Below are positions 3,041 through 45,969 of a stretch of 54,095 nucleotides of DNA, piece by piece. The notes below the pieces were generated by a model. That model searched no databases, was not told the origin of the DNA, and saw only the letters and a list, made by a program, of their open reading frames with translations. Each line of letters begins with the position of its first letter. Positions within the stretch are counted from its first letter, which is position 1. A program made the translations under genes and the position numbers. This DNA is from Bacteroidales bacterium (GTDB lineage Bacteria; Bacteroidota; Bacteroidia; Bacteroidales; P3). The DNA is taken from assembly GCA_024400545.1 (NCBI GenBank), contig JAKSMO010000010.1:1-54095 (forward strand), in the 5' to 3' direction.

Positions 3041-3151
3041 AACGTGGAATAAACGTATTATTAACGTAGAAGATACGTAGAAGATACGTATTGAAATACG
3101 TTTGTTCTACGTTTATTCTACGTATTTAGTACGGTTTTTCTACGTTAATAT
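3041..3151. repeat. Palindromic array of 11-bp units, element 1
   Basis: Ten consecutive 11-mers can be set out here, five on each side of a short centre. The left units start at 3041, 3052, 3063, 3074 and 3085 and carry an ACGTAGAAGAT-like sequence. The right units start at 3097, 3108, 3119, 3130 and 3141 and carry a TACGTTTATTC-like sequence. The inner arms 3064-3090 and 3097-3123 are inverted copies matching at 23 of 27 positions around the 6-nt loop TTGAAA. The units share the pattern CTAYRKTYATY with three other elements in the window, but arm polarity is reversed relative to them. It lies about 30 bp upstream of a minus-strand promoter. No coding potential. Confidence 0.9.
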
Positions 3152-3665: not shown

Positions 3666-5546
3666 TCAAATCTTATTGAATGCGATGAGCAGCACCGACA
3701 CATCGGCTGGGGACACTCCGCTGATACGCGAAGCCTGCCCTATGGTTGCAGGGCGCATATTAGACAGTTTCTCACGAGCCTCGTACGACAACGACTGGAT
3801 AGTGAAATAGTCGAAATCTGAAGGCAGCGGCACATTCTCGAACTTAAGAATGCGGTCGGCTACCTCTTGCTCTTTCTCAATATAGCGCTGATACTTCAAC
3901 GATATTTCGGCAGCATTTACCGCATCAACCCTCACCGAGTCAGGCACTGAATCTATCTGCTCCTGAAGTTCGGGCGATACTACCACCAATTCTTTCATAC
4001 TGATTTCTGGACGGAGCAGCAAGTTAACCAACTTTACTTTTTGAGAAAGCGTGGGTGTGTTGAGACTTTCAAGCATAGTGTTGGCCTTGCTAGGAAGTAC
4101 CGAAGTATTGACCAAATAGTCTGACAACTGATCGGTATAACGATTCTTCTCCCCTACCCTCTTCATTCGCTGATCGTCGGCCAAACCAATCTCATAAGAG
4201 AGCGGTGTAAGGCGCACATCGGCATTATCCTGACGCAAAAGTATGCGATATTCAGCACGCGAAGTGAACATACGATAAGGTTCGTCAACACCCTTGGTAA
4301 CAAGGTCGTCAATCAGCACCCCGATATAGGCCTGAGTACGATTAAGGACAAAACTTGGGCGACCTTGTATCTTGAGCACGGCATTGATTCCTGCCATCAA
4401 TCCTTGACAAGCAGCCTCCTCATAACCTGTAGTACCATTGATCTGACCAGCAAAGTACAAGTTTTCTACACGCTTGGTTTCAAGTGTGTAATTGAGTTGG
4501 GTGGGCGGGAAATAGTCGTATTCTATGGCATAACCCGGCTTGTAGATACGTGCATTTTCAAATCCTTTAATGGCATGGAGCGCATCGAGCTGCACCTCCA
4601 AAGGCAGCGAGGATGAAAAGCCATTCAGGTAATACGAATTGGTCGTCCACCCTTCGGGCTCTACAAATAGCTGGTGCCGGTTCTTATCGGCAAAGCGCAC
4701 AATCTTGGTTTCAATACTTGGGCAATAGCGCGGACCATTGCCTTGTATGCGACCTGTATAAAGAGGAGAACGGTCGAAACCTGTGCGAAGGATTTCGTGA
4801 GCCTCTTCATTAGTATATGCCAAATAGCATGAACGCTGATGGTCGAGAGGTTTGGTATCGGTATAAGAAAATTTCTGAGGGAGCTCATCACCGGGCTGCT
4901 CTTCAAGCTGCTGAAAGTTGATGGTTCGGCCATCGATACGAACAGGCGTTCCGGTCTTGAGCCTATCAACCTCAAAGCCTTGTGACAGCAATTGATCGGA
5001 GAGTCCGACAGCTGACCTCTCCCCTATCCTACCGCCTTGCCAGCTATCCTCGCCAACATAGATTGTGCCATTGAGGAAAGTGCCATTGGTTAGTACAACG
5101 GCTTTGGCAGGAATCTCTATACCCATACGGGTGCGAACGCCACAAGCAACACCGCCATTGATAATCACTTCCGTTGCCTCGTCCTGCCAAACAGAGAGAT
5201 TGGGAGTTTTTTCGAGCATATGGCGCCAATTGAGAGAGAACAACATTTTGTCGCATTGTGCCCTAGGACTCCACATAGCCGGACCTTTGGAAAGATTGAG
5301 CATGCGAAACTGGATCATCGATTGATCGGTGACAATTCCAGAATAGCCACCCAAGGCATCCACCTCTCGGACAATCTGACCTTTGGCCACTCCACCCATG
5401 GCAGGGTTGCACGACATCTGGCATATTGTATCAATATTCAAAGTAACGAGCAAGGTTTTTGCTCCCATATTAGCAGCAGCAGCGGAGGCTTCGGCGCCTG
5501 CATGGCCACCGCCAACAACAATCACATCAAAAGATTCCCAGCGCAT
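3666..5546 (-). CDS. mnmG: tRNA uridine-5-carboxymethylaminomethyl(34) synthesis enzyme MnmG (GidA)
   Basis: 626 residues, the normal length of the family. The N-terminal FAD-binding motif GGGHAGAE lies at residues 12-19 and the signature CNPAMGG at 46-52. The C-terminal helical domain with YxxYI (LKYQRYIEKEQ) binds tRNA and MnmE. With MnmE it installs the cmnm5 group on U34 of tRNAs reading NNA/NNG codons, using FAD, NADH, glycine or ammonium and methylene-THF. Cytosolic. In many bacteria this gene lies close to the replication origin, which agrees with the candidate oriC about 10 kb away. Flanked by two parS-like sites. ybeY is upstream after about 100 nt. Confidence 0.97.
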   Translation of the reverse strand: MRWESFDVIVVGGGHAGAEASAAAANMGAKTLLVTLNIDTICQMSCNPAMGGVAKGQIVREVDALGGYSGIVTDQSMIQFRMLNLSKGPAMWSPRAQCDKMLFSLNWRHMLEKTPNLSVWQDEATEVIINGGVACGVRTRMGIEIPAKAVVLTNGTFLNGTIYVGEDSWQGGRIGERSAVGLSDQLLSQGFEVDRLKTGTPVRIDGRTINFQQLEEQPGDELPQKFSYTDTKPLDHQRSCYLAYTNEEAHEILRTGFDRSPLYTGRIQGNGPRYCPSIETKIVRFADKNRHQLFVEPEGWTTNSYYLNGFSSSLPLEVQLDALHAIKGFENARIYKPGYAIEYDYFPPTQLNYTLETKRVENLYFAGQINGTTGYEEAACQGLMAGINAVLKIQGRPSFVLNRTQAYIGVLIDDLVTKGVDEPYRMFTSRAEYRILLRQDNADVRLTPLSYEIGLADDQRMKRVGEKNRYTDQLSDYLVNTSVLPSKANTMLESLNTPTLSQKVKLVNLLLRPEISMKELVVVSPELQEQIDSVPDSVRVDAVNAAEISLKYQRYIEKEQEVADRILKFENVPLPSDFDYFTIQSLSYEAREKLSNMRPATIGQASRISGVSPADVSVLLIAFNKI

Positions 5547-14586: not shown

Positions 14587-15030
14587 TTATTTCAACAATT
14601 GACTAATCTTTTCGACACGGCGCTGATGACGACCGCCTTCGAACTCGGTGTTGAGAAATTCGTCAACAATCTGCAGAGCCACTTCCTGTGGAATGAAACG
14701 GGCAGGAATGGAGACCACATTGCAATCGTTGTGCTGACGACCTAGGTGGGCAATCTCGGGAGTCCAGCTCAGAGCGCAACGTACATTGGGATATTTATTA
14801 ACAGTCATCTGCACACCGTTGCCGCTACCGCAAATAACGATACCACGGCGATATTCGCCATTGTTGATAACACGACCCAGCTGATGTGCAAAATCAGGAT
14901 AATCAACACTTTCGCTACTATTAGTACCAAAATCCTTTACCTCAAAACCTTTCTCGGCAAGGTATTTTTTGATTACTTCTTTCAATTCAAAACCGGCATG
15001 ATCGCATGCCATAGGAATAATTTCTTTCAT
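14587..15030 (-). CDS. rpiB: Ribose-5-phosphate isomerase B
   Basis: 147 residues from the ATG at 15030; a slightly longer TTG frame is rejected. ACDHAGFELK at the N-terminus, ICGSGNGVQMTVNK with the catalytic Cys, and the HNDCNVVSIPARF segment identify RpiB/LacAB family isomerases. It interconverts ribose-5-phosphate and ribulose-5-phosphate. First gene of a two-gene operon with deoC, from the promoter at 15063-15070, and the last gene before the candidate replication origin, transcribed away from it. Confidence 0.95.
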   Translation of the reverse strand: MKEIIPMACDHAGFELKEVIKKYLAEKGFEVKDFGTNSSESVDYPDFAHQLGRVINNGEYRRGIVICGSGNGVQMTVNKYPNVRCALSWTPEIAHLGRQHNDCNVVSIPARFIPQEVALQIVDEFLNTEFEGGRHQRRVEKISQLLK

Positions 15031-15062
15031 AAACAAGCGTGTTTATAACTATATTAATTTTG

Positions 15063-15642: not shown

Positions 15643-15806
15643 TGGAGTTACACTGGAGCTGCACTGGAGGTGAAGCGGTGCTAAAAGATCATTCCAAGCC
15701 TTCAGTTCCGTCGATTCTACGGTCATTCTACGGTCATCTTATGGTGATGCTACGGCGTAGGACCGTAGCTGTGCCGTAGAAACTCCGTTGGATCACCGGA
15801 ATGTCT
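15643..15806. repeat. Palindromic array of 11-bp units, element 2 (beside the candidate oriC)
   Basis: The left arm has CTACGGTCATT at 15717, CTACGGTCATC at 15728, TTATGGTGATG at 15739 and a diverged unit at 15706. The centre is 15750-15762. The right arm has CCGTAGCTGTG at 15763, CCGTAGAAACT at 15774, CCGTTGGATCA at 15785 and CCGGAATGTCT at 15796, largely the inverted copy of the left arm. A further run of three 11-mers of another sequence (TGGAGTTACAC, TGGAGCTGCAC, TGGAGGTGAAG) lies at 15643-15675. Not coding. It separates the A/T-rich origin flank from the nadA promoter. Confidence 0.85.
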
Positions 15807-16085: not shown

Positions 16086-17036
16086 ATGGACAACAACTTT
16101 TTGAAGAGTGAAATCATTCGTTTGAAAAAGGAAAAGAACGCTGTGATTTTGGGTCACTACTATCAGCGCGACGAGATTCAGGAACTGTCGGACTATATTG
16201 GCGACAGTCTGGCCCTGGCTCAGCGTGCCCAGGATTGCGACAACGATATTATTGTTTTCTGCGGAGTGCATTTCATGGCCGAAACTGCCAAGATTCTTAA
16301 TCCTTCGCGTAAAGTGCTTCTGCCCGACATGAATGCGAGCTGCTCGTTGGCCGAGTCTTGTCCTGCCGAGGCCTTTGCTGAGTTTAAGGCCCAGCATCCC
16401 GACCACATGGTGATTTCATACGTCAACTGCTCGGCCGAGATCAAGGCGCTTAGCGATTTGATTTGTACTTCGGGCAATGCCGAAAAGTTGGTGCGCTCGT
16501 TGCCTGAAGATCAGAAGATTATCTTTGCTCCCGATAAGAATTTGGGTGGATATATCAATGCCGTGACTGGACGTAACATGTTGTTGTGGAATGGTGTATG
16601 CACTGTTCATGATGCTTTGCATGCCGAAAGTGTGTTGAAACTGAGGGCAGAGCATCCCGATGCTGCAGTGATTGCGCACCCCGAGTGCAATAGTGCTCTG
16701 CTGCAGGTTTCGGATTTTGTGGGCAGCACCAAGGCTATGCTCAACTATATTAAAACGTCGGGCAAGAAAAAGTTTATCGTTGCCACCGAAACGGGCATTC
16801 TTTATGAAATGCGCAAGGAAAACCCCGACAAAGAATTTGTGGTTGTTCCTTCGGGCGATGGTTGCTGCAGTTGTGCCGATTGTGCTCATATGAAGCTCAA
16901 CACACTGGAAAAACTGTACAATTGCTTAAAGGATGAAACTCCCGAGATTGTTATGTCGGCCGAGCTGATTGAAAAGGCAAAGAAACCTATTGTGCGCATG
17001 CTTGATATGTCGAAGCAGTTGGGTATTATTAAATAA
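16086..17036 (+). CDS. nadA: Quinolinate synthase
   Basis: 316 residues. NadA binds a [4Fe-4S] cluster through three cysteines; here the regions are CGVHFMAETAK (Cys59), WNGVCTVHD, and the C-terminal GDGCCSCADCAHMK. LGHYYQRDEIQELSDYIGDS at the N-terminus is a family signature. It condenses iminoaspartate with dihydroxyacetone phosphate to quinolinate in de novo NAD synthesis. Its stop codon overlaps the next start by 1 nt (TAATG), indicating coupling with the YbaK-family gene. Confidence 0.97.
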   Translation: MDNNFLKSEIIRLKKEKNAVILGHYYQRDEIQELSDYIGDSLALAQRAQDCDNDIIVFCGVHFMAETAKILNPSRKVLLPDMNASCSLAESCPAEAFAEFKAQHPDHMVISYVNCSAEIKALSDLICTSGNAEKLVRSLPEDQKIIFAPDKNLGGYINAVTGRNMLLWNGVCTVHDALHAESVLKLRAEHPDAAVIAHPECNSALLQVSDFVGSTKAMLNYIKTSGKKKFIVATETGILYEMRKENPDKEFVVVPSGDGCCSCADCAHMKLNTLEKLYNCLKDETPEIVMSAELIEKAKKPIVRMLDMSKQLGIIK

Positions 17037-33832: not shown

Positions 33833-34588
33833 TTAGAAGTTCCAAGTAAAACCCGAGAAGGGGTTGTGCCGGTCGGCGTCTTGTTGTTGCGACAGTTCTT
33901 GCAAATGGCGTATGCGCCGGATTCCCCAGCGCCACATTTTCACATCAAACCAGATGAGCACCACGAACAGTCCCATCCCTACAATTTGGCCTGCGGACCC
34001 CATGCTTTCCGGTATCATGAGCAATGAGTCGAAGGTGCCGTGAAGCAGCATGGGAATGAGGAATGCTTTGAGCATGTGGGATGATGTGTGTTCTTGGTCG
34101 AATTTGGCCAAGGCGAAGTAATAACCCATCATCACGCCAAACAGGAAGTGGCCAGGTACCGACAGAAGTGCTCGCACCGATCCGGTTACCAAAGCATCGG
34201 CATAGCTATCGGACTGAAAAACATAGGCGATGTTCTCAAAACAGGCAAAACCTAACGATACAAAGCAGGCATATACGATACCATCAAAATATTCGTCGAA
34301 CTCTTTGCTGCGCCAAACAGCCCATCTCAGCATAAGGAGTTTGCACAGCTCCTCGCTGCATCCGGCCACAACGAATCCGGTGTAGGCCCCACTCACAATG
34401 GGTATTTGAGGGGTGAATGCGCTGAGAACACTTTCCAACACTATGGCAGGTAGAATGGCTGCAGCACCAAAAAAGAATGCTTTGAGCAGCATGCGTATGG
34501 GTTCTCGCTCAAATCGGTCTTGACGATAAACAACCCATGCCAACACAATCACGGGCAATATGGCTAGGGACAGGATATAGTAATTCAT
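33833..34588 (-). CDS. prsW: PrsW-family intramembrane metalloprotease
   Basis: 251 residues with about seven membrane helices. Active-site motifs are CSEELCK with Glu79-Glu80, CFENIAY at 116-122, His147 in SVPGHFLFG, and LLHGTFDS with His183 and Asp187, the PrsW pattern. In Bacillus PrsW starts regulated proteolysis of an anti-sigma factor; no sigma/anti-sigma pair is in the window, so the substrate is unknown. Promoter box at 34728-34735 gives a leader of about 140 nt. Confidence 0.9.
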   Translation of the reverse strand: MNYYILSLAILPVIVLAWVVYRQDRFEREPIRMLLKAFFFGAAAILPAIVLESVLSAFTPQIPIVSGAYTGFVVAGCSEELCKLLMLRWAVWRSKEFDEYFDGIVYACFVSLGFACFENIAYVFQSDSYADALVTGSVRALLSVPGHFLFGVMMGYYFALAKFDQEHTSSHMLKAFLIPMLLHGTFDSLLMIPESMGSAGQIVGMGLFVVLIWFDVKMWRWGIRRIRHLQELSQQQDADRHNPFSGFTWNF

Positions 34589-34727
34589 TGTTTGTGATTT
34601 TATTAGTTGGATGATTAATTTATTGGTTTTATTATTAAAACATAGTCGAATATGCCAATAATTCCTTGTGTTTTAATATTGAGAATCATATTGTTGCAAA
34701 CAATTATCGGCATGCACAACTTTTATG

Positions 34728-34735
34728 CAAAGATA
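34728..34735 (-). promoter_or_regulatory. -7 box of prsW
   Basis: TATCTTTG on the minus strand, well upstream of prsW. Confidence 0.5.
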
Positions 34736-34829
34736 CAAAAGTTGGGCAAATTGGCAAGGATTATTTTGTCAATGCCGCGTGCATCAGCTTCACCAGCCCC
34801 AAGGAAGTTCCATCTTTATAGGTGTGAGC

Positions 34830-34971
34830 GCTATATCGCCCACTCTTGAACCATCGCCCACACTACGCTCATTCTACGGTCATCTTACGGTAGTGCTACG
34901 CCCCTTGGAACCGTAGCAACACCGTAGGATAACCGTAGAATCAGCGTAGGTAGTGTGGGAGTGGCTATAGC
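34830..34971. repeat. Palindromic array of 11-bp units, element 3
   Basis: Left units: CTACGCTCATT at 34863, CTACGGTCATC at 34874, TTACGGTAGTG at 34885 and CTACGCCCCTT at 34896. Right units: CCGTAGCAACA at 34911, CCGTAGGATAA at 34922, CCGTAGAATCA at 34933 and GCGTAGGTAGT at 34944. The outer flanks also pair: GCTATA and CCCAC blocks near 34830-34862 match the reverse complement of 34950-34971. Best preserved of the four elements; could fold as one long hairpin with about 60-nt arms. Confidence 0.92.
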
Positions 34972-35054
34972 ACAATTCATTGTTGGTGCGAAATAAAAGA
35001 TAGGTTTTTACGTTTACTAGCATTATATAAATGTCAGATTGAATCGCAGTTTTT

Positions 35055-35972
35055 TTGATGATGAACCGTATTAGTTATGCCGATTACTGCCGTAAGGTGT
35101 TTGGCCACAGGATGCAGAAACTCACTGTGGACGCAGGTTTCACTTGCCCTAACCGTGATGGGCGCTTGGGCACAACGGGTTGCGTGTTTTGCAACAATGC
35201 GGCCTTCAATCCGGCATATTGTCAGCCTAGCAAGAGCATCACTCAGCAGATAGAGGAGGGCATTGCCTTTCATCAGCATAGGCGTAGGCATAATGGAGGA
35301 TATTTGGCCTATTTTCAAGCGTATAGCAATACGTATGCACCGGTTGAGGTTTTGCGCAAAAGATTTGATGAGGCTTTGGCTCATCCGCTGGTTGATGGAT
35401 TGGTGATTGGCACTCGGCCAGATTGTGTGAATGACGAGAAGTTGGATTTTTTGGCGCAATTGGCACAACGGCATTATGTGATGGTGGAGTACGGAATTGA
35501 GAGTTGTTATGATAGCACGCTTCTGCGTGTGAATCGTGGGCACGATTTCGCATGTACGAAGCAGGCCATTGTAGCCACAGCCCAACGTGGCATTGCTTGT
35601 GGGGGACATTTGATTTTGGGATTGCCAGGCGAAAGTTGGCACGATATGGTGGCCGAGGCCGAAACCCTTTCCCAGCTGCCACTTACCACATTGAAATTGC
35701 ATCAGTTGCAGATCTTAAAAGGGTCGCAGTTGGCCATGGAATATGAGCGAGATAGGACTTGTGCACCCCCTCCTTTTACGGTGGATGAGTATGTGGCGTT
35801 GGTAAAGGAGTTTTTGCAGCACCTGCGTTCGGATATTGTTGTGGAACGCTGTGTGAGCGAAGTGCCCCCTCGCCATCAGGCGGCGCCTGAGCGCGGATGG
35901 CGACATCCCGACGGAACGCCTGTGAAAGCCGAAGAAATCAGTGCGATGATTTTGTCTAGTCGGCCTGATTGA
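35055..35972 (+). CDS. Radical SAM protein, TIGR01212/YhcC family
   Basis: 305 residues. [19 protein letters not shown] carries the C-x9-C-x2-C [4Fe-4S] motif of the TIGR01212 group. [38 protein letters not shown] and [14 protein letters not shown] are the following conserved blocks of the radical SAM barrel. YhcC function is not settled; roles in tRNA or anaerobic metabolism have been suggested. Cytosolic. Its last 17 nt overlap the 3' end of lptB on the other strand. Confidence 0.92.
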
Positions 35973-45862: not shown

Positions 45863-45969
45863 CGCTCGTTTTACCTTATATATCCTATAGTTATCCTATG
45901 GTTATTCTATAGCGTATAGGATAACTATAGAATATATATAGTATAACTATAGTATAACGAGTAGGACTG
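45863..45969. repeat. Palindromic array of 11-bp units, element 4 (A/T variant)
   Basis: Left units: CTATAGTTATC at 45885, CTATGGTTATT at 45896, CTATAG at 45907, with weaker units from 45863. Right units: TATAGGATAAC at 45915, TATAGAATATA at 45926, TATAGTATAAC at 45937 and 45948, GAGTAGGACTG at 45959. The outer CTCGTT block pairs with AACGAG. Same architecture as elements 1-3, but CG is replaced by TA or TG in both arms together. Confidence 0.9.

Follow-up and report, generated by a model that had tools for sequence, protein, structure and literature searches.

Four intergenic elements in a 54,095-nucleotide stretch of Bacteroidales DNA (here called the window) share a peculiar architecture: a run of 11-base units, a short centre, and inverted copies of the units on the far side. 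What kind of element is this, and is a unit about as long as a helical turn there to be read in DNA or to pair in RNA?

From four elements to a family

An inverted-arm scan of the window at period 11 ranks first exactly the four places for which one inverted layout had been predicted, 3047-3140 (score 1.515), 45866-45960 (1.477), 34857-34955 (1.477) and 15707-15800 (1.235); the runner-up scores 1.091 and the best of 40 dinucleotide shuffles 1.045. In the identical scan, periods 10, 12, 13 and 14 give maxima of 1.04-1.13, and the best places of the window at periods 8 and 9 score 1.32 and 1.29, so that element 2 alone is unexceptional. Taken together, the four elements are exceptional. The right arm of element 3 holds an exact four-unit TACnnT match (minus strand, 34910-34948). 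Units point toward the centre in elements 2-4, as is the rule for types A and B, and away from it in element 1, of type C. The original prediction described the units by the consensus CTAYRKTYATY, which fits the common ones while departures occur, and it drew element 2 too wide: the palindrome itself stands (Table 1), whereas the left part, 15643-15704, lies outside it and carries units in one direction. Similar copies of element 1, over 63-77 bases, are found on contig C98 of the same genome (87%) and in relative G020 (92%). A tRNA-Lys (TTT) lies at positions 2-75 of the window, minus strand.

Table 1. Elements of the window and the genes beside them
Feature	Position	Strand	Evidence
Element 1, type C, unit CTACGTTTATT, units pointing away from centre	3041..3146		score 1.515; fold z -7.9
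mnmG/gidA, beyond right side of element 1	3666..5546	-	PF01134, E 5.6e-160
rpiB-like gene, left of element 2	14587..15036	-	PF02502, E 4e-58
Three GC-rich 11-base one-direction units, about TGGAGTTACAC, TGGAGCTGCAC, TGGAGGTGAAG, beside element 2	15643..15675	+	read directly
Element 2, type A, between rpiB-like and nadA genes	15705..15802		score 1.235; fold z -4.7
nadA, right of element 2	16086..17036	+	PF02445, E 5e-123
PrsW-like protease gene, left of element 3	33833..34588	-	PF13367, E 3.5e-43
Element 3, type A inverted array	34851..34964		score 1.477; fold -66.4 kcal/mol, z -9.1
Element 3 left arm, units CTACGCTCATT, CTACGGTCATC, TTACGGTAGTG, pointing to centre	34863..34902	+	sequence
Element 3 right arm, inverted units CTACGCTGATT, CTACGGTTATC, CTACGGTGTTG	34910..34949	-	sequence
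Radical SAM gene, right of element 3	35055..35972	+	PF16199, PF04055
Element 4, type B, AT-rich unit CTATAGTTATC	45864..45962		score 1.477; fold z -5.4

The possibility that only these four occur is dismissed by a search of the whole genome (G000) for two adjacent units with at most two mismatches, which gives 82 matches where the reversed control gives 1. Forty-one stretches were examined besides the window, making 45 places, and an element was called at a score of at least 1.15. By this threshold 44 of the 45 places hold an element, the sole exception (C46, L032) being probably a chance match. A unit search outside the 45 adds five type B places (C16, C37, C62, C63, C78), and there is an extra inverted array whose unit is approximately TTGCAATGAAG (C29, L104:8278-8370). 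The genome has at least three unit types; by unit, 26 of the 44 elements are of type A, 16 of type B and 2 of type C. Given that all three are present in this one window, the estimated 8% contamination of the assembly cannot explain their coexistence. Over 400 kb of the genome the detector picks up 7 places at period 11; for periods 10 and 12 the counts are 4 and 1. Inverted arrays with units of about 8 bases (TTTAGTTG/CTTAGTTG; L108:6907-7042, C62) show that short inverted arrays with other periods are present here too.

On rough ORF calls, the genes around the elements are oriented -+ in 12 cases, -- in 10, +- in 9 and ++ in 9, with 4 incomplete; the 40 elements with genes on both sides thus comprise 12 divergent, 9 convergent and 19 same-direction contexts. 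Eight of the 44 share sequence with open frames 60-152 codons in length, which we take as spurious. The genome therefore carries a dispersed family of about fifty intergenic palindromes in every gene orientation. A scan of the genome and its relatives had been proposed with the original prediction; once run, it turned up a dispersed family whose members share one layout and have units of about a helical turn.

Spelling, period and position among relatives

Relatives within the genus, for which a set of 120 genomes was used, have the same architecture with different unit spellings: CTACCATCTCC in G009, GTACCCTCTCC in G097, GTCCGCTTGTT and GTACAATATAT in G094, TTACACTTGTT in G017 and GTACAGTATAT in G077. 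In 744 kb from 16 relatives, partly chosen around known matches, the detector finds 24 places at period 11, about three of them doubtful; period 10 gives 2 and period 12 gives 3. The genus also has inverted arrays with units of 7 and 8 bases.

Do the spellings have anything in common? Fifteen of them, aligned by rotation, reach 4.637 bits, compared with at most 4.293 in 100 column-permuted sets and at most 4.458 in 100 randomly oriented ones; related spellings in this set are not independent, the register of those of G009 and G097 is ambiguous, and G070 and the types B and C of our own genome were left out. Core positions are among the best kept within arrays, in part by construction, as rotations were chosen on information. 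The fifteen spellings thus appear to share a loose core, approximately TACnnT. This core is not universal, and arrays of the reversed control are also common: of the 119 genus genomes, 77 have four TACnnT units in a row, with one mismatch allowed (1976 matches), 60 have the reversed control (386 matches), and in 30 of those 60 the control equals or exceeds the pattern. At the level of the order, the exact four-unit pattern is found in 25 of 295 genomes and 24 of 184 genera (360 matches), and its reversed control, counted from the table, in 23 of 295 genomes (102 matches). Many of the order-level arrays inspected run in one direction only. In the fragmented assembly of G107, contigs L202, L203 and L205 end inside arrays; draft genomes therefore probably undercount them.

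Positions are kept between some species, not generally. At five junctions of G077 that aligned among the stretches at hand, a related element is kept in the relative at three, and at two the relative has, by eye, a one-direction 11-base array of another spelling. At the first of the five junctions, G107 (C141, L205:1500-2450) has a 7-base inverted array (AGTGACC/AGTGACA) in place of the 11-base element of G077 and G078. An array lies upstream of nadA in 8 of 29 relatives, L072 being a doubtful case, and in 15 of 126 background regions, some of which are nadA itself (p 0.038), and G006 has none at this junction; upstream of the radical SAM gene there is an array in 0 of 26 relatives (29 loci, 3 uncalled). 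General conservation of position is thus rejected, being weak at the first gene and absent at the second. Spacing along the chromosome seemed regular in a few intervals of G077.

Arms, edges and known systems

The original prediction held that the two arms of an element change together. This is true of an element's overall spelling and hardly of its single units. With arms anchored at the centre, agreement in type A is 0.677, shuffled partners giving 0.633 and 1 of 5000 shuffles doing as well; in type B the two values are 0.736 and 0.742 (3644 of 5000). Opposing units agree only slightly better than units of different elements (0.713 versus 0.683 in type A, 0.790 versus 0.781 in type B), and an apparent excess of covariation in type B vanished once two type C elements were removed from the set. 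When shifts of up to 5 bases between arms are allowed, the innermost 22 nt of type A stand out (8 of 200 shuffles as good), as does one outer stretch of type B (12 of 200, in a set that includes one type C element). In G077, 44-nt arms agree at 0.936 versus 0.922 (42 of 2000 shuffles as good), and at one edge position, where no base has a frequency above 0.62, the two arms mirror each other in 11 of 12 elements. The share of transitions is 0.36 among arm mismatches and 0.32 among the differences between elements, all types together, and we find no G-U preference among arm mismatches, wobble-compatible ones being split 101/89 between the strands. Given that opposing units are little more alike than those of different elements and that wobble pairs are not preferred, it is the unit that is kept, not the pairing. 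Within the unit, positions 8 and 11 vary most in type A and positions 6 and 11 in type B; the others are better kept.

Similarity between elements peaks near the centre and fades outward, with no conserved end. In the 12 copies analysed from G077 a 97-bp core is nearly invariant and the flanks vary; by eye, the bases beside the core are inverted rather than direct copies, the ends of the elements not being definable. In type B (17 rows, including one of type C and leaving out elements near stretch ends) the inner 44 nt have a GC content of 0.20-0.21 and the 30 nt beyond them, on either side, one of 0.58, and the outer units, about CTAGCTCCGCC, resemble by eye a free-standing array, L880, of relative G020. 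Several elements of G097 appear by eye to have one spelling nested inside another. Such layered elements may record the replacement of one repeat spelling by another. In G020 (C319, L877:1850-2150) a type C element adjoins an array of unit CTACGGGGATC, an altered type A spelling.

Could the family belong to a system already described? The original prediction set the elements apart from ordinary REPs, CRISPRs and transposon ends, and as far as tested this is borne out. They share with REP/BIME sequences the many short intergenic palindromes of species-particular sequence; REPs, described in part in PMC3733652, are single stem-loops of 20-40 bp tagged GTAG or CGTC, whereas the arrays are runs of 11-bp units. 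A RAYT transposase is typical of REPs, yet PF01797 (Y1/RAYT) has 0 matches in G000, G009, G061 and G074, all of which have arrays. CRISPRs are direct repeats with unique spacers, and here units abut without spacers; where MITEs have conserved terminal inverted repeats, similarity here falls with distance from the centre. BrickBuilt, a MITE of Porphyromonas gingivalis, has about 20 intergenic copies with 23-nt direct repeats, predicted long stem-loops, and a leader and tail with 12-nt IS5-like terminal repeats (PMC4596501). BrickBuilt is thus alike in being an intergenic Bacteroidales repeat with tandem units and long predicted stem-loops, and identity is rejected, since its units are 23-nt and direct, ours 11-nt and inverted, and the ends differ. 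Tandem boxes of the OmpR/PhoB type come near in another respect: in one study, PhoP binds directional 7-bp motifs with a strict 4-bp spacer, giving 11 bp per protomer, and its binding is tighter with three and four consecutive motifs (PMC4832192). The arrays likewise have a directional unit and this period; such boxes are promoter sites in one direction, whereas the arrays are inverted, lie in all gene contexts and come with no protein found to bind them. A literature search, largely without subscription papers, yielded no description of inverted 11-base repeat arrays.

Two further systems bear some likeness. DNA uptake sequences form dialects, one short motif being spelled differently in related species; they serve DNA uptake and come singly or in pairs rather than as phased arrays. 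Phage initiator-gene origins have imperfect units of about 11 bp, some with TACnnT, in genes that match replisome-organizer families. We find such arrays in five phage genes from IMG/VR (L306, L353, L369, L386, L402), whose proteins match PHROG replication families, and these arrays are presumably replication origins. Five TAC11 arrays lie in genes that match one profile, four of which built it; in the same test the reversed, TAG11 and period-10 controls give none and period 12 gives two weak ones. Among 44 imperfect arrays of the reversed control, 25 fall within open frames too, and several of these frames have the look of phage initiators. The phage arrays sit inside a phage gene, and viral contigs show no enrichment for TACnnT at 11 bp: it gives 98 stretches, one control pattern 104, and three further control scans at least 120 each. 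The spellings of our genome match 0 stretches (type A) and 2 stretches (type B) in IMG/VR, and element 3 has no match in plasmid or phage records. Phage origin iterons are therefore rejected as the identity of the family and kept as an analogy.

Among candidate partners, namely RAYT, LytTR and DUF4373, no binding protein for the arrays was found. RAYT is rejected, with arrays at only 2 of 30 Y1-transposase loci, at none of the 30 on both sides of the gene, and no RAYT in the four array-bearing genomes named above. The arrays, in our estimation, resemble LytTR sites of the AgrA and PlnC type. LytTR proteins are near-universal (58 of 60 genomes, arrays present or not) and do not discriminate; an array, a weak one, lies near 1 of 30 LytTR loci, and this candidate is also rejected. 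So is DUF4373, a phage-type initiator domain found in 1 of 40 genomes.

How the arrays may be read

The repeat family is genuine and of unusual design. We propose, tentatively and with a probability of roughly 0.4, that the elements are helically phased arrays for a putative host protein, stacked one protomer per turn. The candidate protein would recognise, from one face of the helix, a short core that in most cases is close to TACnnT; protomers would stack head to tail, one for each 11-bp turn, and each of the two inverted arms would carry a stack, the two facing each other and meeting at the short centre. The arrays would have spread between genes as a repeat family through some copying process; from species to species the spelling of the unit would change, and the spacing, the loose core and the inverted layout would persist. 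Their effect, if they have one, might be on local chromosome structure or on the boundary between neighbouring genes. For such stacking, PhoP at 11 bp (PMC4832192) may serve as a working precedent. The period, the loose core within the genus and the lack of a pairing constraint together favour DNA arrays read once per turn by a protein, and arms that agree in unit sequence and little in pairing are expected if the unit itself is read. The preference for period 11 in relatives (24 places versus 2 and 3) is in accordance with this. Contrary points are that no binding protein was found, that the core is not universal, that element 1 has the opposite polarity, that inverted arrays of 7- and 8-base units exist, and that positions are kept only in part. 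A wider form of the proposal, rather unlikely in our judgement, would have genus-wide chromosomal docking arrays, in which a conserved protein family reads one motif per turn and the spelling of dozens to hundreds of arrays in each species shifts with its specificity; new spellings would grow or insert at the centre, the outer layers being older.

Alternatively, the elements may be selfish palindromes of the REP or MITE kind, copied by a transposase encoded elsewhere and devoid of host function, with the 11-bp units as transposase sites. We consider this doubtful, though a serious contender. About fifty dispersed copies in all gene orientations, very similar copies at unrelated places in G077 and G094, the patchy occurrence of the type B unit (found in 8 of the 120 genomes of the genus, in three of them as a single match, and absent from G020) and the presence or absence of an array at the nadA junction all suit a mobile palindrome. 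Against it stand the conserved middle and fading edges, the reverse of what MITEs have and thus an argument against a classical one, together with the failure to define a terminal repeat or target duplication, and the RAYT results, with no gene in four array-bearing genomes and few arrays at Y1 loci. Slippage and template switching at palindromes during replication might also make and homogenise arrays with no protein involved, an improbable origin in our view. The 7- and 8-base inverted arrays of the same genus, the many spellings, and the layered elements with another spelling outside would be in keeping with it; however, one spelling recurs at dozens of unrelated places, period 11 is preferred, core and polarity are common to spellings, and opposing arms are barely matched, whereas template switching would match them.

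A question remains, are the elements selected as RNA hairpins, that is, as transcribed terminators, stability elements or protein-bound RNA in which the 11-bp unit is an A-form turn? All four window elements have strong predicted single-strand folds (z against shuffles in Table 1), and in the predicted stem of element 3 single mismatches are spaced 11 pairs apart. Yet covarying pairs, the mark of a structured RNA, amount to a small excess in type A and none in type B, mismatches show no G-U preference (the 101/89 wobble split), gene orientations are alike in number, and arrays in other families run in one direction. No intrinsic terminator, a stem followed by a T run, was found in 34600-35100, around element 3, the one element searched. 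In Rfam only tRNA exceeds the gathering threshold in the window, the best sub-threshold match at element 3 (E 0.48) being at chance level. The centre-anchored comparison of arms lowered odds that were already slight, and we hold this explanation very improbable. Arm agreement, mismatches and the conserved middle thus argue against both a conserved RNA hairpin and a classical MITE. Of the two meanings first offered for the 11-bp unit, we prefer that of a motif presented on one face of the DNA, and selection as an RNA hairpin is not borne out.

Dispersed palindromic repeats are common in bacteria; what sets this family apart is a building block of one helical turn. The evidence suggests an undescribed repeat family recognised by a DNA-reading protein, and the keeping of the period while the spelling changes between species points to chromosome-scale selection by such a protein. 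The many spellings in one genus amount to a natural experiment, in which the specificity of protein and site may be matched across about 100 species.
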